From Pseudomonas koreensis (lineage in GTDB: Bacteria; Pseudomonadota; Gammaproteobacteria; Pseudomonadales; Pseudomonadaceae), in assembly GCF_024169245.1 (NCBI RefSeq), contig NZ_JALJWP010000001.1:5910793-5974792 (forward strand): 64,000 nt of DNA, in the 5' to 3' direction. A program made the translations under genes and the position numbers. Under the pieces are notes generated by a model, which was not told where the DNA came from, ran no database searches, and saw only the letters and a list, made by a program, of their open reading frames with translations. Of the stretch, positions 5,230 through 56,270 are shown piece by piece; the first letter of the stretch is position 1; every line of letters begins with the position of its first letter.

Positions 5230-5389
5230 CCCCTCACCCCAACCCTCTCCCCCAAGGGGGCGAGGGGGAAAGGGAGCCGATCTTCATGCTTTTCAAACCT
5301 GAATTCACCTCGATAATTCAGGTCGATGCACCTCGAACATACACCACGGTCAGTCCCCTCTCCCCCTGGGAGAGGGCTAGGGTGAGGGG
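5230..5389. repeat. 160-bp MITE-like element, copy 1 (terminal inverted repeats)
   Basis: The left end begins CCCCTCACCCCAACCCTCTC and the right end finishes GAGGGCTAGGGTGAGGGG, so the ends are imperfect inverted repeats. The interior is shared with a second copy at 14028-14186 in opposite orientation: GAGCCGATCTTCATGCTTTT here against GAGCCGATCTCCATGCTTTT there on the reverse strand. It has no coding capacity. It lies between the dctD-like stop and the regulatory region of the symporter gene, and may also act as a transcription barrier. Confidence 0.8.
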
Positions 5390-5410
5390 CTTTTGATCTT
5401 CACGCCGATA

Positions 5411-5459
5411 AGCGGAAATCCGCTCACGCAGCCCAATCAGTCGGCACAAATCCGCTCAC
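5411..5459 (+). promoter_or_regulatory. Putative activator binding region (two repeated sites) for the DctD-like regulator
   Basis: The 12-mer AAATCCGCTCAC occurs at 5416-5427 and again at 5448-5459, exactly 32 bases apart or about three helical turns. The first copy is part of a dyad, AGCGGA-AA-TCCGCT (5411-5424). The region lies 40-90 bases upstream of the sigma-54 promoter, where enhancer-binding proteins of this class usually bind. That the adjacent regulator binds here is inference. Confidence 0.6.
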
Positions 5460-5498
5460 CCATTCCCTCTACCCCCTCTAAACCGGCCCCTCACCCCT

Positions 5499-5514
5499 TG
5501 GCACAGCTCCTGCT
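5499..5514 (+). promoter_or_regulatory. Sigma-54 (RpoN) promoter of the dicarboxylate symporter gene
   Basis: TGGCACAGCTCCTGCT matches the -24/-12 consensus TGGCAC-N5-TTGC well. The invariant GG (5500-5501) and GC (5512-5513) are separated by ten bases, as required. It lies 63 bases before the symporter ATG at 5577, and the neighbouring regulator is of the sigma-54-activating class. Confidence 0.8.
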
Positions 5515-5576
5515 ATAGCCCCAGCAGGCTGCGTTCCGACGCGCTCCACAAAAACAATTAAATGAAGGATCCTTCA

Positions 5577-6896
5577 ATGGATAACTCCAACGCCCAGCCC
5601 CTTGGGTCGGCTGCCGTGCCGGCCAAACCGAGAACCACCGCCAGCCGGATCAAATCGATCTTCAGCGGCTCTGTCGGCAACATGGTCGAGTGGTACGACT
5701 GGTATGTGTATGCCGCCTTCTCCCTGTACTTCGCCAAGACCTTCTTCCCCGCCGGCTCCACCACCGCACAGCTGATGAACACCGCAGCGATCTTCGCCGT
5801 GGGCTTCTTGATGCGGCCGATCGGTGGCTGGCTGATGGGCATGTATGCCGACAAGGTCGGGCGCAAGAAAGCGCTGATGGCCTCGGTGTACCTGATGTGC
5901 TTCGGCTCGCTGCTGATCGCCCTGAGCCCGAACTATGAAACCATCGGCATCGGCGCGCCGATCCTGCTGGTGTTTGCCCGCCTGCTGCAAGGCCTGTCGG
6001 TCGGCGGCGAGTACGGCACCTCGGCGACTTATCTGTCCGAGATGGCGACCAAGGAACGTCGCGGCTTCTTCTCCAGCTTCCAGTACGTAACGCTGATCTC
6101 CGGCCAGCTCATCGCCCTCGGCGTGCTGATCGTGCTGCAGAACATGCTGACCACCGAGCAGCTGTACGCGTGGGGCTGGCGCATCCCGTTCGCCATCGGC
6201 GCGCTCTGCGCAGTGGTGGCGCTGTACCTGCGTCGCGGCATGGAAGAAACCGAGTCGTTCACGAAAAAAGAAAAATCCAGGGAAAGCGCCATGCGCACCT
6301 TGATGCGCCACCCGAAAGAGCTGTTGACCGTGGTCGGCCTGACCATGGGCGGCACCCTGGCGTTCTACACCTACACCACCTACATGCAGAAATACCTGGT
6401 GAACACGGTCGGCATGAGCATCTCCGACTCGACCACCATTTCCGCCGCCACGCTGTTCCTGTTCATGTGCCTGCAACCGATCATCGGTGGCCTGTCGGAC
6501 AAGATCGGCCGGCGTCCGATCCTGATCGCGTTCGGCGTGCTGGGTACGATCTTCACCGTGCCGATCCTGATGACCCTGCACACCATCCAGACCTGGTGGG
6601 GCGCGTTCTTCCTGATCATGGCGGCACTGATCATCGTCAGCGGCTACACCTCGATCAACGCGGTGGTCAAAGCCGAATTGTTCCCCACTGAAATCCGCGC
6701 CCTTGGCGTCGGCCTGCCGTACGCACTGACCGTGTCGATCTTCGGCGGCACCGCCGAATACATCGCGCTGTGGTTCAAGAGCATCGGCATGGAAACCGGT
6801 TACTACTGGTACGTCACCGCGTGCATCGCCGTGTCGCTGCTGGTGTACATCACCATGAAAGACACCCAGAAGCACTCGCGGATCGTCACTGACTGA
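5577..6896 (+). CDS. MFS metabolite:H+ symporter, alpha-ketoglutarate/dicarboxylate type (KgtP/PcaT-like)
   Basis: 439 residues and twelve predicted membrane helices, of the metabolite:proton symporter branch of the major facilitator superfamily. Visible marks are SVGNMVEWYDWYVYA in helix 1, the loop 2-3 motif GMYADKVGRKKALM and the matching GLSDKIGRRPIL in the second half. It should import a TCA-cycle dicarboxylate, most likely alpha-ketoglutarate, across the inner membrane. An ATG at 5562 is also in frame, but AAGGA at 5564-5568 lies eight bases before the ATG at 5577, which I take as the start. A sigma-54 promoter and repeated sites upstream tie it to the DctBD-like system. Substrate specificity is inferred from family and context. 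Confidence 0.9.
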   Translation: MDNSNAQPLGSAAVPAKPRTTASRIKSIFSGSVGNMVEWYDWYVYAAFSLYFAKTFFPAGSTTAQLMNTAAIFAVGFLMRPIGGWLMGMYADKVGRKKALMASVYLMCFGSLLIALSPNYETIGIGAPILLVFARLLQGLSVGGEYGTSATYLSEMATKERRGFFSSFQYVTLISGQLIALGVLIVLQNMLTTEQLYAWGWRIPFAIGALCAVVALYLRRGMEETESFTKKEKSRESAMRTLMRHPKELLTVVGLTMGGTLAFYTYTTYMQKYLVNTVGMSISDSTTISAATLFLFMCLQPIIGGLSDKIGRRPILIAFGVLGTIFTVPILMTLHTIQTWWGAFFLIMAALIIVSGYTSINAVVKAELFPTEIRALGVGLPYALTVSIFGGTAEYIALWFKSIGMETGYYWYVTACIAVSLLVYITMKDTQKHSRIVTD

Positions 6897-6911
6897 TCGG
6901 GCTACATCGCT

Positions 6912-6938
6912 GGCAGGACACAAAATCCGTGTCCTGCC
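6912..6938 (+). terminator. Perfect hairpin after the symporter gene
   Basis: GGCAGGACAC (6912-6921) pairs perfectly with GTGTCCTGCC (6929-6938) around a seven-base loop, 15 bases after the symporter stop codon. There is no T run, so it may protect the 3' end or act together with the repeat that follows rather than be a classic terminator. Confidence 0.5.
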
Positions 6939-6946
6939 CCGAACCC

Positions 6947-7031
6947 GTAGGAGCTGCCGAAGGCTGCGATCTTTTGATCTTGATCCTGAAAAAGACAAAA
7001 TCAAAAGATTGCAGCCTTCGGCAGCTCCTAC
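6947..7031. repeat. Paired REP-type hairpin, GTAGGAGCTGCCGAAGG family
   Basis: The arm GTAGGAGCTGCCGAAGGCTG at 6947 is answered by its reverse complement ending at 7031, with a short AT-rich centre. The same family recurs at 8569, 21173, 29047, 30689, 34539 and 48413. Confidence 0.85.
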
Positions 7032-7113
7032 GGGGCCTTGCATCCGGGTGGAAATATGCGCTGGGGCCTTGCACTATGACTGCATTCGAATGCAGCTCAG
7101 GAATCCGCTCCCC

Positions 7114-7743
7114 ATGCCCGATGACATCCACTTCTACGAACCCGCCAACGGCCACGGCCTGCCTCACGATCCGTTCAACGCCATCGTCGGCCCGCGCCCC
7201 ATCGGCTGGATCTCCTCGCAGGATGCCGAAGGCCGGCTCAATCTCGCGCCTTACAGTTTTTTCAACGCGTTCAATTACGTGCCGCCGATCATTGGTTTTT
7301 CCAGCGTCGGGCGCAAAGACAGTCTGAACAACATCGAGCAGACCGGTGAGTTCGTCTGGAACCTCGCCACCCGCCCGTTGGCCGAGCAGATGAACCAGAG
7401 CTGCGCGATGGTCGCGCCTGAGGTCAACGAGTTTGAATTGGCGGGGCTGACGACCGTAGCGTCAAAAGTGATTTCGGTACCACGGGTCGCCGAAAGCCCG
7501 GTGTCCTTCGAGTGCAAGGTCACGCAGATCATCCAGTTGCAACGCGCCGATGGTGAAACCGTGCCGAGCTGGCTGATTCTCGGCGAAGTGGTTGCCGTAC
7601 ACATCGCCAAATGGCTGCTCAAGGATGGCATCTACGACACCGCCGCCGCACAGCCGATTCTGCGCGGCGGCGGGCCGGCGGATTATTTCCAGCTCGGGCC
7701 TGAAGCACTGTTCAAAATGTGGCGCCCGGGGGCGCAGAAATAA
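7114..7743 (+). CDS. Flavin reductase-like (FMN-binding split-barrel) protein
   Basis: 209 residues of the flavin reductase/FMN-binding split-barrel fold. Family marks are NAIVGPRPIGWISSQDAEGR and LNLAPYSFFNAFNYVPPIIGF near the N-terminus, the typical RPIGW...N.APYS...P signature. Such proteins bind FMN and are thought to reduce flavin or act as small oxidoreductases in the cytoplasm; the substrate is unknown. In-frame codons reach back to 7009, but that part lies inside the REP hairpin. The ATG at 7114, preceded by CAGGA at 7097-7101, starts the conserved sequence. It stands alone, between a repeat and a convergent small gene. Confidence 0.85.
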   Translation: MPDDIHFYEPANGHGLPHDPFNAIVGPRPIGWISSQDAEGRLNLAPYSFFNAFNYVPPIIGFSSVGRKDSLNNIEQTGEFVWNLATRPLAEQMNQSCAMVAPEVNEFELAGLTTVASKVISVPRVAESPVSFECKVTQIIQLQRADGETVPSWLILGEVVAVHIAKWLLKDGIYDTAAAQPILRGGGPADYFQLGPEALFKMWRPGAQK

Positions 7744-7986
7744 CTACCAGACCAGCTCGGCGTCATCAGTGACGCCCTGGAGTTTATCCAGCTCGGTGAT
7801 CGCCGCTTCATCGGCAGCGATGGCGCCGGGAAACACCTGCTCGTTCAGCAATTTGTGAAAGCGCGGTGCGCCGCCATCGACCAGGGCCTTGACCGCGATC
7901 GCCGCGTAATAACCCTTGTTGCCGCCAAGCTCGACGGGGACGACTGCGGAGACTGCTTCGAAGCGTTCAAACTCTTTACGTGCCAT
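7744..7986 (-). CDS. Small conserved hypothetical protein (80 aa)
   Basis: 80 residues, start MARKEFERFEAVSAVVPV, with AGGATC seven bases before the ATG. No signal peptide or membrane helix is visible; composition is that of a small soluble acidic protein, with KGYYAAIAVKALVDGGAP and a C-terminal acidic end DDAELVW. Its stop abuts the convergent flavin reductase-like gene with no spacer. I do not recognise a family. Codon use and GC match the neighbours, so it is probably a real gene. Confidence 0.65.
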   Translation of the reverse strand: MARKEFERFEAVSAVVPVELGGNKGYYAAIAVKALVDGGAPRFHKLLNEQVFPGAIAADEAAITELDKLQGVTDDAELVW

Positions 7987-8029
7987 GTCGCGGATCCTGG
8001 CTCAATCAATTAAGCCGGACATTAAACCC

Positions 8030-8383
8030 TCAACCGGCGAGTTTGTGTATCGGCGCAGCGCATTGACCGAGGGCCTGCGCGGCGGAAACGTCCCTGAACG
8101 TGTGGAAGTCGAGGCTGTTGACCACCAGGTCCTGGACCAGCTCGGCGAAGACTTCCATCGACGCACTGTTGAAATACGCAGTCATCATCTGCTGGCTGCT
8201 CCAGTAGCCGCTGACCAGCCACAGGTCGGCGTCGCACTGCGATTGTTGCAACGAGAAACTCAGGCAACCGGGCGAAGCGCGCGAGACCTCGATCAAAGCG
8301 CTCAGGCGCACGCCGAGTTCCGCCGAGCGCCCGGCCTGGGCACGAACGAAGGCCATATGACTGACAGGCATCTGCTTGGACAT
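8030..8383 (-). CDS. Antibiotic biosynthesis monooxygenase (ABM)-domain protein
   Basis: 117 residues with the ferredoxin-like ABM layout: VSHMAFVRAQAGRSAELGVR, a helix ending in EVSRASPGCLSFSLQQS, and WLVSGYWSSQQMMTAYFNS. Members are small dimeric, cofactor-free or heme-linked monooxygenases, for example of quinols. A much longer frame is open upstream, but GGAGGG lies just before the ATG at 8383 and the upstream part would run through a REP hairpin, so I place the start here. An AraC gene diverges from it across about 395 bases and is a candidate regulator. The substrate is unknown. Confidence 0.8.
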   Translation of the reverse strand: MSKQMPVSHMAFVRAQAGRSAELGVRLSALIEVSRASPGCLSFSLQQSQCDADLWLVSGYWSSQQMMTAYFNSASMEVFAELVQDLVVNSLDFHTFRDVSAAQALGQCAAPIHKLAG

Positions 8384-49755: not shown

Positions 49756-51807
49756 ATGTCCGAGCCACGCAAGATCCTCGTCACCAGCGCCCTGCCCTAC
49801 GCCAATGGTTCGATCCACCTTGGCCACATGCTGGAATACATCCAGACCGATATGTGGGTGCGCTTCCAGAAGCATCGCGGCAACCAATGCATTTATGTCT
49901 GCGCCGACGACGCCCACGGTTCGGCGATCATGCTGCGCGCGGAAAAGGAAGGCATCACCCCGGAACAACTGATCGCCAACGTGCAGGCTGAACACAGCGC
50001 CGACTTTGCCGACTTCCTGGTTGATTTCGACAACTTCCACTCCACTCACGCCGAAGAAAACCGTGAGCTGTCGAGCCAGATCTACCTAAAGCTGCGTGAC
50101 GCCGGGCATATCGCTCAACGTTCGATTACCCAGTATTTCGACCCGGAAAAGAAAATGTTCCTGGCCGACCGCTTCATCAAGGGCACCTGCCCGAAATGCG
50201 GCACCGAAGACCAGTACGGCGACAACTGCGAAAAATGCGGCGCGACCTACGCACCGACCGACCTGAAGGATCCGAAGTCGGCGATCTCCGGCGCCACCCC
50301 GGTGCTCAAGGATTCCCAGCACTTCTTCTTCAAGCTGCCCGACTTCCAGGACATGCTCCAGGCCTGGACCCGTAGCGGCACCCTGCAAGATGCGGTGGCC
50401 AACAAGCTTTCCGAATGGCTGGATGCCGGCCTGCAACAGTGGGACATTTCCCGCGATGCGCCGTACTTCGGCTTCGAAATCCCGGGCGAGCCGGGCAAGT
50501 ATTTCTACGTGTGGCTGGATGCGCCGATCGGTTACATGGCCAGCTTCAAGAACCTCTGCAATCGTACGCCGGAGCTGGACTTCGACGCGTTCTGGGGCAA
50601 GGACTCGACTGCCGAGCTGTATCACTTCATCGGCAAGGACATCGTCAACTTCCACGCACTGTTCTGGCCAGCCATGCTTGAAGGCGCCGGCTACCGCAAG
50701 CCGACCGGCATCAACGTGCACGGCTACCTGACCGTCAACGGCCAGAAAATGTCGAAGTCGCGTGGCACCTTCATCAAGGCCCGCACTTATCTCGATCACC
50801 TGTCACCGGAATACCTGCGCTATTACTACGCGGCCAAACTGGGCCGTGGCGTCGACGACCTCGACCTGAACCTCGAAGACTTCGTGCAGAAGGTCAACTC
50901 CGATCTGGTCGGCAAAGTGGTCAACATCGCCAGCCGTTGCGCCGGGTTTATCCACAAGGGCAACGGCGGCCTGCTGGTCGACAACAATGCCGCGCCGGAA
51001 CTGACCGAGGCCTTCCTCGCCGCCGCGCCGAGCATTGCCGACGCCTATGAAGCCCGCGACTTCGCCCGCGCCATGCGTGAAACCATGGCCCTGGCAGACC
51101 GCGCCAACGCCTGGATCGCCGACAAGGCGCCATGGTCGCTGAACAAGCAGGAAGGCAAGCAGGATGAAGTCCAGGCGATCTGCGCCACCGGCATCAACCT
51201 CTTCCGCCAACTGGTGATCTTCCTCAAGCCGGTATTGCCGCTGCTGGCCGCCGATGCCGAGGCGTTCCTCAACGTCGCGCCGCTGACCTGGAACGATCAC
51301 ACCACGCTGCTGGCCAACCATCAGCTGAACGAATTCAAACCGTTGATGACCCGCATCGACCCGGTAAAAGTGCAAGCCATGACCGACGCCTCGAAAGAAG
51401 ACCTGACCGCCAGCCAGACCGATACCGGCGAAACCAAGCCTGCGGGCAATGGCGAACTGGCCAAGGATCCGCTGTCGCCGGAAATCGATTTCGATGCTTT
51501 TGCCGCCATCGACCTGCGCGTCGCGTTGATCGTCAAGGCCGAACACGTGGAAGGCGCCGACAAGCTGCTGCGCCTGACCCTCGACATCGGTGACGAGCAA
51601 CGCAATGTGTTCTCCGGGATCAAGAGCGCTTACCCGGATCCGTCGAAACTTGACGGTCGCCTAACCATGATGATCGCCAACCTCAAGCCACGGAAAATGA
51701 AGTTCGGTATTTCCGAAGGCATGGTGATGGCGGCGGGCCCTGGTGGTGAAGAGATCTACCTGCTGAGTCCGGACAGCGGCGCCAAGCCGGGTCAGCGCAT
51801 CAAGTAA
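49756..51807 (+). CDS. metG: Methionine--tRNA ligase
   Basis: 683 residues, full length. Class I signature HLGH (HIGH) in [14 protein letters not shown], the zinc knuckle CPKCG...CEKCG (about 146-161), KMSKS in [12 protein letters not shown], an anticodon-binding helical domain, and the C-terminal tRNA-binding domain ([20 protein letters not shown]) that dimerises the enzyme. It charges tRNA-Met in the cytoplasm. A terminator follows the stop. Confidence 0.99.
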
Positions 51808-51923: not shown

Positions 51924-52493
51924 ATGACCGAACTCGTGCTTACGCTGATCAGTGCCGCCCTGCTCAACAACTTCGTGTTGCACTGGCCGCTGGGCGTCGC
52001 TCCGCTGCTGGCGGGTAGCCGACGGCAAGTGCATGCGCTGGGGTTGGCGACGTTGTGCCTGATGATGGTCGTCGGCGTCATCGGTCAAGCGATCTGGCAA
52101 TGGATACTGGTGCCGTTGCAGCTTGAAGCGCTGCGGCTGTTCGTGTTTTTGCCGTTGAGTGTGTTGTTGATCGCACCGCTGCTGAAACTGCTGGCACGCG
52201 GACTGCCGGATTGGCCGTTCGAGGGATTATGGCCGCTGTTGCTCGGCAATGCCGGGGTACTCGGGCTGGCGTTGATCAACGCGCAACACGACCAAGGCCT
52301 GCTGAACGCGACAGCCTTGAGTCTCGGCGCCGGGCTGGGCTTCTGGCTGGTGCTGAGTGTGTTCTGCGATCTGCGCGAGCGCACGGCCGACAACGATATT
52401 CCCCTGCCCTTTCGCGGCCTGCCGATCGACTTGATCAGCGCCGGACTGATCGCAGTGATTTTTCTCGGATTCAGTGGATTGATCAAAACATGA
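51924..52493 (+). CDS. rnfA: RnfA-like membrane subunit of an Rnf/Rsx-type complex, lacking the conserved cysteines
   Basis: 189 residues and six predicted membrane helices. It aligns end to end with E. coli RsxA as I recall it: [15 protein letters not shown] for NNFVLVKFLGLCPFM, and [20 protein letters not shown] then GFSGLIKT for the C-terminus. In Rnf/Nqr complexes this subunit and RnfE each give two cysteines to a 2Fe-2S cluster in the membrane. Here both RnfA positions are Ala (Ala26 in LGVAPL, Ala110 in LGNAGVLG), so the cluster ligands are absent. The stop overlaps the rnfB start (ATGA). First gene of the operon rnfA-B-D-G-E-nth. Confidence 0.88.
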
Positions 52494-53494
52494 GTCTGAT
52501 TCAACGCATCGATGCCCTGCTGCCGCAGACCCAATGCGGCAAGTGCGGCCATCCCGGATGCAAACCCTATGCGCAAGGCATCGTTGATGGCGAGCCGATC
52601 AACAAGTGCCCGCCGGGCGGCGAGGAAACCATCGCCGCCCTGGCCGAGCTGTTGAAAATACCGGTCCTGGAACTGGACATCAGCCGTGGCCCGGCACCGC
52701 CGCAAATCGCCTTCATCCGCGAGGCCGAATGCATCGGCTGCACCAAGTGCATTCAGGCCTGCCCGGTCGACGCCATCGTCGGCGCGGCAAAACTCATGCA
52801 CACGGTGCTGATCGACGAGTGCACCGGTTGTGATCTGTGCGTTGCGCCGTGCCCGGTCGACTGCATCGAAATGCATCCTTTGCCTGCGAACACGATCCCG
52901 GTGGTTGGCGGTCTCGCATTCGATCTCGAAGAACAGCGCGCCCGCGCTGAAAAGCGTGACCATGCGCGCCAGCGCTTCGAGCGCCGCAACCAGCGCCTGC
53001 TGCGTGAAGAACAGCAAAAACAGGCCGAACGTGAAGCGCGAGCCCAGCGTGCGGCACAGCCACAAGTTTCGAACGCTGATCCGGTTCAGGCAGCGCTCGA
53101 GCGGGTACGTGCGCAAAAAGCCGCGAACGCCGACGCGGCGCTGAAGAAGGCCAAGGTCGATGTGGCGATGAGTCGTGCGCAACTGCACAAATCGCTGAAA
53201 GCCTTCGGTCATCCGCCGACGTTCGAGCAGCAGTCGCAACTGATCGTCCTGCAGCAACAATTCGAAGCCGCCGAACAAGCGTTGGCCACCCTGGAAAACA
53301 GCCAACCGGCAACTCCCGTCGCCCCCGCTCCGAGCAACGACGCGGAACTGAAGCGGGCCAAAATCCAGTTGGCCATGCGCCGCGCCGAGTTGAAAAAAGC
53401 TCAGGCGGCAGAGGCTGCACCCGAGCAGATCGCAGCACTGGAACAGGCCGTGACTGACGCCGAGCGTCGGGTGCAAGACCATGCCGCCCCTTGA
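52490..53494 (+). CDS. rnfB: RnfB-like iron-sulfur protein without membrane anchor, with RnfC-like tail
   Basis: 334 residues. The Fe-S core is intact: an N-terminal four-Cys cluster (Cys16, 19, 24 and 40) and two ferredoxin clusters (Cys81, 84, 87, 91 and Cys111, 114, 117, 121). It begins directly at [20 protein letters not shown], so the hydrophobic N-terminal anchor of usual RnfB (about 25 residues) is absent. From about residue 145 a 190-residue Glu/Arg/Ala/Lys-rich coiled tail follows ([37 protein letters not shown]), which resembles the C-terminal tail of RnfC. rnfC itself is missing. The stop region overlaps the rnfD start by 14 bases. Confidence 0.9.
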
Positions 53495-54464
53495 GGCTGC
53501 GGATGATCGCCTGCAACAGGCGATGAATAGCGTGCTGCTCGCAGCTCTGCCGGGGCTGCTTGCTTTGTTCTGGCTGTATGGCTGGGGCGTGTTGATCAAC
53601 CTGCTGCTGGCGGTTGTCAGCGCTGTGCTCGTCGAGGCTGGCGTTGCCCGTCTGCGTCGGCAAGCGATGCAACCTGCGTTGCGCGATGGCAGTGCGCTGG
53701 TCAGTGCAATGTTGCTGGCCGTTGCGCTGCCGGCTTATTGCCCTTGGTGGCTGACGGTCACCGCGACCGTTTCTGGCTTGGTGTTCGGCAAACACCTGTA
53801 TGGCGGCGTCGGCAAAAACCCGTTTAATCCGGCGATGCTCGGCTTTGCCTTGAGCATCGCGCTGTTCCCGCAAGCGATGACGCAGTGGCCAGGTCATGGC
53901 CTCGATTTCCTTCCGGCGCTGCAACAGGTTTTCAATCCAGCTCAAGCGCCGGACGCCTGGGTGCAGGCCACCGCACTGGACAGTCTGCGCATCAATAAAA
54001 GCCTGACCATGGATGAGCTGTTCGCCGGCAATCCGGCCTTCGGCCGTTTTGGCGGGCGCGGTGTGGAGTGGGTGAATCTGGCGTTCCTGCTCGGCGGCCT
54101 GTTCCTGTTGCAGCGGCGGATCTTTTCCTGGCACGCGCCGGTGGGCATGCTCGCCAGCCTGTTCGTCATCAGCCTGTTGTGCTGGAACGGCTCGGGCTCG
54201 GATTCCCATGGTTCGCCGCTGTTTCACCTGCTCAGCGGCGCCACGATGCTCGGCGCATTTTTCATCGTCACCGAACCGGTGTCCGGGGCGAAAAGCGCCC
54301 TCGCCCGACTGCTGTTCGGCGTGGGCGTCGGCTTGCTGACTTATCTGATTCGTACGTGGGGTGGTTACCCGGACGGCGTCGCGTTTGCGGTATTGCTGAT
54401 GAATCTTCTGGTGCCCGCGCTGGAGCGCTTCGCCGCCAGCCGCCGGCCGCCGGTGAGCGCATGA
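53481..54464 (+). CDS. rnfD: RnfD-like flavin-binding membrane subunit
   Basis: 327 residues, about eight membrane helices. The FMN-attachment motif is present as [20 protein letters not shown], with Thr255 as the expected phosphoester-linked residue. [20 protein letters not shown] is the conserved RnfD/NqrB loop. It should pass electrons and help ion movement. ATG 53481 lies inside the end of rnfB; a later ATG at 53523 has no better ribosome site. The stop overlaps the rnfG start (ATGA). Confidence 0.92.
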
Positions 54465-55066
54465 AGCGCTCGGCCAGTGTCATGATGATTGTGCTGCTGG
54501 CGTGCGTTGGCGTGAGCGCGACCTACATGCTGCAGCGCAGCAGTGCGCCGGGGATTGCCGCCGAGCAGCGTTTGCTCGACAGCCGCAAACTGCTTGATGT
54601 GCTCCCTGCAGAACGCTACGACAATCAGCCGCTGGAGCACCCGCTGACGCTCGTCGACTCAGCGCTGCGCCATAGCACGCTGTCAGGCGGCTATCGGGCG
54701 ATGCAATCCGGGCAAACCGTGGCCGTGCTGTTGCGCAGCAGGACCGAAGGTTACGCAGGTATTCTCGAACTGCTGATCGCCATCGATGCCAACGGCAAAC
54801 TTCTTGGTGTTAAAACCCTTGAGCAGCGCGAAACGCCGGGATTGGGCGGTCACATCGGTGAATGGCCGAATGCCTGGCTGCAGAGTTTCACCGGTAAATC
54901 CCGCAGTGACCCGACAGACGCCGGCTGGGCGCTGAAAAAGGATCAAGGGCAATTCGATCAGATGGCCGGTGCGACCATTACCTCCCGTGCCGCGATCAAT
55001 GCGATTCATGACGCGCTGCGTTACTTCGATGAGCATCGGGCGCTGCTGCTGGGAGCTGGAAAATGA
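54461..55066 (+). CDS. rnfG: RnfG-like periplasmic flavoprotein subunit
   Basis: 201 residues: an N-terminal membrane helix (about 5-22) and a periplasmic FMN-binding domain. The covalent FMN motif SGATxT reads AGATITS here (residues 170-175), with both Thr kept (Thr172 and Thr174) and the first Ser replaced by Ala. GYAGILELLIAIDANGKLLG and LEQRETPGLGGHIGEW are the usual RnfG blocks. The stop overlaps the rnfE start (ATGA). Confidence 0.92.
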   Translation: MKRSASVMMIVLLACVGVSATYMLQRSSAPGIAAEQRLLDSRKLLDVLPAERYDNQPLEHPLTLVDSALRHSTLSGGYRAMQSGQTVAVLLRSRTEGYAGILELLIAIDANGKLLGVKTLEQRETPGLGGHIGEWPNAWLQSFTGKSRSDPTDAGWALKKDQGQFDQMAGATITSRAAINAIHDALRYFDEHRALLLGAGK

Positions 55067-55635
55067 AGCGCACACTAACGTTATTGATGCTGGTGCCGTT
55101 ACTGGGCGCCACAGAAACATTGAGCGCTGCATTGGGGATGACTCTGATGCTCGGCACGACGCTCGGAGCCTTCGCCCTATGCATGTCGGTGCTACGTGAT
55201 CGTCTGACGGGCGCAAAAGTATTGCTGGCGAACCTGATACTTGCCGCAACGTTGACCAGTTGCGCAGACATTGTGGCGCGACGCTGGTTTTTACCCTGGC
55301 AGCAGCCGCTTGATCTCTATATAGGGCTGATCGCCCTGCAATGCATCGCGCTTGAACACAGCGGCGCCCTCCGCGGCCCCGCCATCGCGGGTTTCAAACG
55401 CTGTGTCATGTTCAGCGCGCTCATGCTGTCGATCGGCGGGCTGCGCGAAATCATCGGCCATGGCACCCTTGGCCGAGGGTTTCCGACGCATTGGCAAGGT
55501 GTGGTTTTATTCCCCGAGGGGCTGCATCTGATTACGCTGGTTCCCGGCGCTTTTGTTTTACTGGGTTTGCTTCTCGCCGTTGGTCAGGCGTGGACACGCC
55601 GCAACTCTGTCATCAAGGAAACGCATCGCCCATGA
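55063..55635 (+). CDS. rnfE: RnfE-like membrane subunit with shortened N-terminus
   Basis: 190 residues and about six membrane helices. Against E. coli RsxE from memory, the N-terminus is about 15 residues shorter, and LLGLCPLLAV is replaced by LMLVPLLGAT, so the first cluster Cys is Val11. The second is kept as Cys94 (IALQCIALE). SIGGLREIIGHGTLG and LVPGAFVLLGLLLA match the C-terminal half. An in-frame stop at 55030 excludes a longer start. Start and stop overlap rnfG and nth (both ATGA). Confidence 0.85.
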   Translation: MKRTLTLLMLVPLLGATETLSAALGMTLMLGTTLGAFALCMSVLRDRLTGAKVLLANLILAATLTSCADIVARRWFLPWQQPLDLYIGLIALQCIALEHSGALRGPAIAGFKRCVMFSALMLSIGGLREIIGHGTLGRGFPTHWQGVVLFPEGLHLITLVPGAFVLLGLLLAVGQAWTRRNSVIKETHRP

Positions 55636-56270
55636 ATGCTGCAAAACGTCTTGAGATATTTCGCCGACTGCACGAAGACAATCCCGAGCCGAAGACAGAA
55701 CTGGCCTACTCGTCGCCCTTCGAGCTGCTGATTGCGGTAATTCTTTCGGCGCAGTCCACCGATGTGGGCGTCAACAAGGCCACGGCAAAACTGTTTCCGG
55801 TTGCCAATACACCCGCAGCGATTTTCGCGCTGGGTATCGAAGGGTTATCCGAGTACATCAAGACCATCGGTCTATACAACAGCAAGGCGAAGAACGTCAT
55901 CGAAACCTGCCGCTTGCTGGTTGAACGCCATGGCGGCGAAGTCCCGCAAACCCGAGAAGAACTGGAAGCCTTGCCCGGCGTCGGACGCAAGACAGCCAAC
56001 GTGGTCCTCAATACAGCGTTTCGCCAGTTGACCATGGCAGTCGACACGCACATTTTCCGCGTCAGCAACCGCACCGGCATCGCGCCGGGGAAAAATGTGG
56101 TGGAAGTTGAAATGAAACTGATGAAGTTTGTGCCGAAAGAATTCCTGCTCGATTCACATCACTGGCTGATTTTGCACGGCCGTTATGTGTGCCTGGCGCG
56201 CAAACCGCGCTGCGGTAGCTGCCGCATCGAAGACCTGTGCGAATACAAACATAAAACTTCCGACGATTGA
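55632..56270 (+). CDS. nth: Endonuclease III (DNA glycosylase/AP lyase)
   Basis: 212 residues, full length: helix-hairpin-helix LPGVGRKTANVVLNTAFRQ with the catalytic Lys, the catalytic Asp in VDTHIFRVSNR, and the C-terminal 4Fe-4S loop (four Cys from CLARKPRCGSCRIEDLC). It removes oxidised pyrimidines. The ATG overlaps the rnfE stop, so it is translated together with the rnf genes, as in the rsx-nth operon of E. coli. Confidence 0.98.
   Translation: MNAAKRLEIFRRLHEDNPEPKTELAYSSPFELLIAVILSAQSTDVGVNKATAKLFPVANTPAAIFALGIEGLSEYIKTIGLYNSKAKNVIETCRLLVERHGGEVPQTREELEALPGVGRKTANVVLNTAFRQLTMAVDTHIFRVSNRTGIAPGKNVVEVEMKLMKFVPKEFLLDSHHWLILHGRYVCLARKPRCGSCRIEDLCEYKHKTSDD

Follow-up and report, generated by a model that had tools for sequence, protein, structure and literature searches.

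The window analysed herein is a stretch of 64,000 nt from Pseudomonas koreensis (assembly GCF_024169245.1, one contig of 5.97 Mb, 100 % complete), and the element in question is an rnf operon that lacks rnfC. The run of genes at this locus, metG, rnfA, rnfB, rnfD, rnfG, rnfE and nth, lies entirely in one direction, and five of the encoded proteins are named RnfA, RnfB, RnfD, RnfG and RnfE by family scans, with RnfA and RnfE scoring far under their family cut-offs (116 vs 229 bits and 62 vs 213 bits, respectively). The gene order and overlaps given in the earlier note on this DNA proved exact in the coordinates: an ATGA joins rnfA to rnfB, rnfD to rnfG, rnfG to rnfE and rnfE to nth, and 14 bases are shared by rnfB and rnfD. 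The features of the locus, numbered from the first position of the window, are as follows.

49756..51807, + strand: metG (a name that we presume), left border of the locus; read as a frame
51924..52493, + strand: rnfA, 189 amino acids, without cluster cysteines; frame, family scan and alignment
51999..52001, + strand: RnfA Ala26, in place of the first cluster cysteine; aligned with RnfA from solved structures
52251..52253, + strand: RnfA Ala110, in place of the second cluster cysteine; alignment
52490..53494, + strand: rnfB, 334 amino acids, without a membrane helix and with an RnfC-like tail (hereafter tailed RnfB); family scans and hydropathy
52892..53491, + strand: tail of this RnfB, residues 135–334, an rnfC remnant; homology to the C-terminal tail of canonical RnfC
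53481..54464, + strand: rnfD, 327 amino acids; frame and family scan
53970..53972, + strand: RnfD Thr164, predicted attachment site of flavin mononucleotide (FMN), a motif assignment that we in part presume; Thr throughout the alignment
54461..55066, + strand: rnfG, 201 amino acids; family scans
54974..54976, + strand: RnfG Thr172, predicted FMN attachment site (DQMAGAT); alignment
55063..55635, + strand: rnfE, 190 amino acids; frame and family scan
55093..55095, + strand: RnfE Val11, in place of the third cluster cysteine; alignment
55342..55344, + strand: RnfE Cys94, the only cluster cysteine retained; alignment
55632..56270, + strand: nth (endonuclease III), whose first 4 bases are shared with rnfE, bounding the locus on the right; family scan

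A search of the window genome with the TIGR01945 profile recovered no rnfC, the only matches scoring 57 and 26 bits against a cut-off of 246. When their frames were read, these two weak matches were found to sit in NuoF- and NuoI-like proteins, which we take to be components of complex I, and on the basis of these scores and this reading an rnfC elsewhere in the genome is ruled out. There is also no RnfD/NqrB-like match besides the single RnfD, and no NqrF match above cut-off, such that a second rnf or nqr system in this genome is likewise ruled out. The genome-wide search for rnfC- and nqrF-like genes proposed in the earlier note has thus returned neither an rnfC elsewhere nor a second complete rnf operon. 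Both the RnfC with FMN and two [4Fe-4S] clusters that is expected of an RNF complex, and a complete rsxABCDGE set (RsxC being absent), are missing from the window genome.

Comparison of the same locus across the genus, likewise suggested previously, drew on 199 genomes of Pseudomonas, in which RnfB was counted at an E-value of 1e-20, and RnfC and RnfD over their family cut-offs. RnfC exceeded its cut-off in 28 of these genomes and RnfD in 137, with RnfB matches present in 172. The combination of an RnfD over cut-off with no RnfC of the canonical class, hereafter the variant state, was observed in 114/199 genomes, and is therefore no accident of a single genome; 60 of the 114 were read at the locus, and the rest were assigned from RnfD score class and the RnfC search. 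In the fetched loci with enough flank, nth is downstream in all 108 variant loci, in all 20 loci where RnfB stands alone (solo RnfB) and in 27/30 canonical loci, and metG is upstream in 106/107 (the exception being L082), 20/20 and 20/29, respectively. Neither gene lies beside the canonical rnf of L189, L200 and L202, which belong to one Denitrificimonas and two uncultured Gammaproteobacteria. Five of the 114 variant genomes hold a second, different RnfC elsewhere. Such a distinct RnfC (373–404 bits) occurs in nine of the 199 genomes overall (e.g. L090–L093, from G101, G182, G177 and G021), adjoined by a divergent RnfD in all seven genomes for which coordinates or the fetched locus were read, and in G021 also with ApbE nearby; together, the second RnfC and the divergent RnfD are a separate Rnf-like system.

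The earlier claim that there is no room for rnfC or a remnant of it between rnfB and rnfD stands as far as room is concerned, but a remnant does exist, in the form of an RnfC C-terminal tail fused in frame to the end of RnfB. In the window, this tail comprises 200 residues, and its local alignment to canonical RnfC tails scores 230–292 for the 8 tails tested out of 32, compared with a maximum of 145 for window-wise shuffles (200 each) and 70–110 for the reversed tail; a low-complexity artefact as the source of the similarity is ruled out by these controls. In some relatives the tail is preserved as far as the RnfC terminus, a strict motif of that end being present in 17/99 RnfB from operons of the window type (ABDGE), in 0/20 solo RnfB and in 9/31 canonical RnfC. 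Residues following the last Cys motif number 29–37 in canonical RnfB, compared with a median of 212 in the tailed RnfB of operons (100 loci) and 204 in solo RnfB (20 loci). The simplest route to such a fusion would be an in-frame loss of the catalytic part of RnfC.

Upstream of this tail, the window RnfB contains an FeS domain (residues 11–42) and a 2x[4Fe-4S] ferredoxin domain (residues 74–128), with no N-terminal membrane helix. Ahead of the first cluster, hydropathy does not exceed 1.01 in any of 120 variant or solo RnfB (99 ABDGE, 1 ABDG and 20 solo, many with too few upstream residues for the 19-residue window), as opposed to maxima of 2.2–3.3 in 32 canonical RnfB, and by this measure the membrane-anchored RnfB of an RNF complex is not found here. 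The cluster cysteines of RnfB are kept in 152/152 rows. In a tree of the RnfB core, the window type groups with Pseudomonas RnfB and with 3 of 12 solo RnfB from outside the genus (support 86), although this tree is poorly resolved, with only 5/84 inner branches at ≥95. The tailed RnfB might instead have been taken over from lineages with solo RnfB.

The second alteration concerns RnfA and RnfE. According to excerpts of PMC12174285, the mid-membrane [2Fe-2S] cluster of RNF and NQR is held by four cysteines, one from each of four half-helices of RnfA/E (NqrE/D). Residue states were counted in 62 rows, comprising the window and 61 distinct relatives (54 of the 60 fetched stretches and 7 short loci, L037–L043, in which some genes are cut off), and covering 60 of the 114 variant genomes plus G022. 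Cys is found at the first RnfA ligand position in 0/62 rows (4 of them with a gap) and at the second in 0/62, set against 10/10 canonical sequences in each case, and at the third position, in RnfE, in 0/62 rows, set against 22/22; only the fourth, Cys94 of RnfE, is kept, in 58/62 rows. Rather than the four cysteines of an RNF complex, the window thus retains one (Ala, Ala, Val, Cys). In a larger set of 116 rows, in which some genomes occur twice (the main counts rest on the 62), the only Cys or His columns present in more than 70 % of variants are RnfA His37, RnfE Cys67 and RnfE Cys94, and replacement ligands for the lost cluster were rejected on these conserved columns. Many positions of canonical RnfA/E are changed in the variants. 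Because three of the four ligands are absent, the input limb would be dead, and the route from RnfB through the [2Fe-2S] of RnfA/E to RnfG should be gone. Two observations on RnfA may be added: Asp occupies the first cluster position, expected to be mid-membrane, in 41/62 rows (Ala in the window), and the RnfA N-termini of L048, L065, L071 and their relatives have, several residues ahead of the position of the lost ligand, a Cys (NHLCL, NCVL) that is not conserved across the variants.

The flavin sites have been retained. Thr164 of RnfD, together with its Asp, is kept in 62/62 rows, and the attachment Thr of RnfG in 61/62, with Ser in the remaining one; RnfG is also the only FMN_bind match of the window genome. 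ApbE is the FMN transferase that attaches FMN, and, judged from sequence alone, the window genome holds both the attachment Thr residues of RnfD and RnfG and an ApbE, as an RNF complex would. Across the genus, ApbE was found in 151/199 genomes, and its distribution follows RnfD closely: it is present in 137/137 genomes with RnfD over cut-off vs 14/62 without (Fisher p 8e-34, kinship ignored). With respect to RnfB the same comparison is flat (133/172 with vs 18/27 without, p 0.23). FMN_bind matches occur in 4 of the 62 genomes without RnfD over cut-off, three of which have an Nqr-like RnfD match below cut-off, the fourth being G034. At the locus of G034 (L211), the rnfD frame is split in two, as is that of metG, and these splits are likely assembly errors.

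In the window genome, apbE is unlinked to the operon and lies between genes that we take to be sthA and gapdh, with a transporter gene adjoining and no nqr genes there, an arrangement shared by the near relative G096. Four relatives display, at the same place, gapdh, nqr-like genes (found via Rnf homologues), apbE and sthA. Because nqr-like genes stand beside apbE at this place in the relatives, it seems that an nqr operon was lost and that apbE was left behind.

With regard to distribution, gene content shows that RnfB and RnfADGE have been lost independently of one another, as modules that can live apart. RnfB and RnfD occur together in 120/199 genomes (23 with canonical-class RnfC and 97 variant), RnfB without RnfD in 52, RnfD without RnfB in 17 and neither in 10. 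This double dissociation indicates a separate use for each module, and the earlier idea of a complex kept in tight coupling is not supported in view of it and of the absence of Cys at three of the four RnfA/E cluster positions. The losses fall at one site beside nth: in all 20 loci fetched from the 52 genomes with RnfB and no RnfD, the tailed RnfB stands alone between metG and nth. Among the species with the window state (ABDGE) are P. protegens, P. fluorescens, P. brassicacearum, P. cichorii, P. viridiflava, P. otitidis and one P. putida record, among those with the ADGE state P. mosselii, P. huaxiensis and P. parasichuanensis, and among those with canonical rnf P. indica, P. chengduensis and P. 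thermotolerans. One genome, G022, holds both a complete rnf with an RnfC of a distant type (L209), with ApbE on the same contig ~9 kb away, and an RnfC-less operon at the metG–nth site (L056).

At the level of the class, RnfB matches were present in 168/184 genomes and RnfD over cut-off in 117. Loci from outside the genus with RnfB and no RnfD over cut-off have nth in the same fetched stretch in 10/12 cases. In the solo RnfB read there, a hydrophobic helix ahead of the first cluster is absent, and the tail is shorter and resembles that of RnfC only weakly.

As all 64 variant RnfD fall into one clade (Shimodaira–Hasegawa-like approximate likelihood ratio test, SH-aLRT, 100, in a quick search without bootstrap), the variant operon appears to be of single origin. 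On a metG and nth tree of 146 loci, the presence of RnfD needs 10 changes, that of RnfB 5 and that of RnfC 7, and on a tree of 78 loci the presence of RnfADGE needs 7. The seven changes of RnfC alongside a single RnfD clade suggest exchange of operons or, alternatively, an old coexistence of both forms. Median ratios of non-synonymous to synonymous substitution rates (dN/dS) for 42–43 variant pairs are 0.21 for RnfA, 0.11 for RnfB, 0.13 for RnfD, 0.34 for RnfG and 0.29 for RnfE, compared with 0.045, 0.07, 0.11, 0.25 and 0.11, respectively, for 7–8 canonical pairs, and with 0.04 and 0.08 for metG in the variant and canonical pairs; frames begin at the first start after a stop, such that some carry upstream extensions that also touch these values. 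No internal stops were found in RnfD rows over cut-off. By these measures the variant operon is under purifying selection, with constraint having fallen most in RnfA and RnfE and hardly in RnfD, a pattern that loss of the cluster route with continued use of the flavin route would produce. The variant is thus a lasting, selected state that must serve another purpose than a complete Rnf, and to this extent the earlier interpretation is supported.

Taking these results together, it is probable that the operon is a derived Rnf remnant of single origin, comprising two modules, a soluble tailed RnfB and a flavin-only RnfADGE membrane module, with electrons moving one way. The states of subunits, tail, anchor and cysteines, the kept FMN sites, the co-occurrence of ApbE, the independent losses and the selection are all readings of sequence, and from such readings we infer flavin attachment, the direction, donor and acceptor of electrons, activity and partners. 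The first module would be a soluble polyferredoxin, its iron–sulphur (Fe-S) domains freed of the membrane helix and the RnfC tail attached. The second would consist of RnfADGE and the unlinked ApbE, with flavins as its sole redox carriers: an FMN each on RnfG and RnfD, plus a riboflavin assigned to RnfD by homology. The canonical forward path, as set out in excerpts of PMC12174285, runs from RnfB via the [2Fe-2S] of RnfA/E to the FMN of RnfG, the FMN and then the riboflavin of RnfD, RnfC and nicotinamide adenine dinucleotide (NAD); RnfC, which had been described as the electron entry, is so only in the reverse direction (NADH to ferredoxin), and in the forward direction is the exit. In the variant, the first limb of this path would be without its carrier and the last without its protein (RnfC), leaving RnfG and RnfD. 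Electrons in the remaining limb would most likely flow in a single direction, entering from a donor in the membrane or at its cytoplasmic face and leaving to a periplasmic acceptor, as has been proposed, in the portions available of PMC8238504 and PMC10979944, for other partial systems. Tailed RnfB may act as donor where present, but cannot be needed everywhere. More tentatively, and with slightly less than even confidence, it may be suggested that, in a large part of Pseudomonas, RnfD and RnfG form a one-way conduit for electrons, either across the membrane or along its surface, matured by ApbE and with RnfA/E as a metal-free scaffold, alongside a separable polyferredoxin of RnfB and RnfC tail with its own cytosolic Fe-S task.

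Several points weigh against this interpretation. Across six independent RnfD contrasts on the tree of 78 loci, ApbE followed RnfD in an average of 4, was unchanged in 2 and ran counter to it in 0 (median p 0.125, with low power). ApbE is also present in 10/58 genomes that have neither RnfD nor an FMN_bind match (G006, G051, G056, G065, G066, G084, G092, G173, G189 and G194). RnfG shows the highest dN/dS of the operon, and RnfADGE, having been lost several times, is dispensable. Furthermore, RnfA and RnfE are kept despite the loss of their known carrier, and so must have some other role; in addition, the quinone site of NqrB is said to be absent from RnfD (excerpts of PMC12174285).

A rather unlikely possibility, albeit one compatible with the two-module reading, is that tailed RnfB partners the Fe-S protein Nth, or Fe-S repair, the membrane genes lying between them by history. 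The coupling to nth noted earlier is real, and RnfB, more than the membrane complex, is what it points to, given that RnfB alone is flanked by metG and nth in every one of the 20 fetched loci and that solo RnfB outside the genus keeps nth close by in 10 of 12. Synteny is, however, the sole basis of this proposal, and 27/199 genomes have no RnfB match.

More doubtful is a half-circuit, in which tailed RnfB would replace RnfC under RnfD, with electrons passing from a cytoplasmic donor through it to RnfD and RnfG. In this protein, ferredoxin domain and RnfC tail follow each other as they do in the C-terminal half of RnfC; 97/114 variant genomes have RnfB as well as the variant RnfD; and such an arrangement would account for the loss of both the RnfB helix and the RnfA/E cluster. 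Nevertheless, RnfB is absent from the other 17/114 variant genomes and occurs without RnfD in 52/199, and the tail is about as long in solo RnfB as in the operons. In Azotobacter vinelandii, moreover, a long RnfC helix contacts RnfB and RnfH (excerpts of PMC12174285), such that the tail may serve RnfB itself.

That the operon is a relic decaying slowly under weak selection, with an RnfADGE of no defined function, is improbable. Repeated losses, raised dN/dS in RnfA and RnfE and the many changed positions of canonical RnfA/E are in keeping with decay, but the reading frames of RnfD over cut-off are free of internal stops, dN/dS medians lie well below 1, FMN residues are kept throughout the 62 rows apart from one Thr-to-Ser change, and ApbE accompanies RnfD in every genome, being present even where nqr genes are absent; the RnfD are, in addition, of one clade.

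SoxR, proposed earlier as a target of reduction, is present in the window genome and in 144/199 genomes overall, but does not track RnfD (103/137 with vs 41/62 without, p 0.23), is slightly opposed to RnfB (120/172 with vs 24/27 without, p 0.04) and occurs in only 6 of the 23 genomes with canonical-class RnfC. Solely among the 176 genomes without canonical-class RnfC is it somewhat commoner with the variant (97/114 vs 41/62, p 0.007, kinship ignored), and a link to the operon, at best weak, is unsupported but conceivable. A working Rnf that takes its electrons from ferredoxin or flavodoxin directly at RnfB, or that reduces SoxR or Fe-S proteins, is highly improbable, since the intact RnfB cluster cysteines and the SoxR association in that subset are set against the missing cluster Cys at three of four RnfA/E positions, which would break the known path from RnfB, and the variant genomes that lack RnfB altogether.

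Compared with canonical RnfABCDGE (RNF/RSX), the window type has homologous A, B, D, G and E in the same order, the FMN sites, ApbE and the site beside nth with metG upstream, both of which are also frequent among canonical loci of the family; it differs in lacking the catalytic part of RnfC, the RnfB helix and three of four cluster Cys, in the RnfC tail of its RnfB and in the separate loss of its modules. The Nqr/Rnf-like two-subunit systems are likewise partial Rnf, thought to pass electrons one way to a flavinylated extracytosolic domain; their RnfD, however, is fused to an NAD-binding domain and is without the conserved RnfD-type Thr, and they are found mainly in Actinobacteria and the candidate phyla radiation (PMC8238504 and PMC10979944, in the portions available). 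The window RnfD, on the other hand, keeps the Thr, a domain scan of it found only PF03116 and not the NAD-binding domain PF00175, and RnfA and RnfE are retained alongside it. Na+-NQR is also thought to derive from an rnf operon that lost an input gene (excerpts of PMC4014512), but possesses the intramembrane cluster (excerpts of PMC12174285) and NqrF, neither of which the window operon has. Solo RnfB beside nth (NF005415 / PRK06991) similarly displays no membrane helix, two Fe-S regions and a basic helical tail; this tail is, as noted for loci outside the genus, shorter and only weakly RnfC-like, and the window protein, which scores 249 bits against NF005415, under its cut-off of 281, stays inside an rnf operon.

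Literature searches, partly of titles and the starts of abstracts and with few subscription papers covered, returned no use of the word rnfABDGE and nothing pointing to this arrangement. The parts are known; the combination of lost cluster residues, kept flavin sites and a fusion of RnfB to an RnfC tail is new as far as these searches reach. Excerpts of PMC12174285 characterise RnfA/E, with their cluster, as conserved to an exceptional degree and as what carries electrons through the membrane in both RNF and NQR. A lineage that keeps the flavin sites but has lost the NAD subunit, the cluster residues and, in some members, RnfB is thus a natural experiment on the RnfD–RnfG limb and the RnfA/E scaffold. 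Because the NADH subunit and the cluster residues are lost, yet the flavin sites are kept, the complex of many Pseudomonas species probably does a different job. Where such genes are labelled 'Rnf/Rsx complex', as in records named P. fluorescens, P. protegens or P. putida, the label should not be taken to mean a ferredoxin:NAD pump. One survey, in the portion available of PMC8238504, recognised an RNF wherever a flavinylation cluster contained an RnfB gene; by this rule it would count the ABDGE form as RNF and miss the ADGE form.

Finally, a locus from another family of the class (L231, G211) contains rnfD, rnfG, rnfE and nth in this order at ~5354–8361, with no rnfA, rnfB or rnfC recognised upstream, and is perhaps a second, independent reduction of Rnf.

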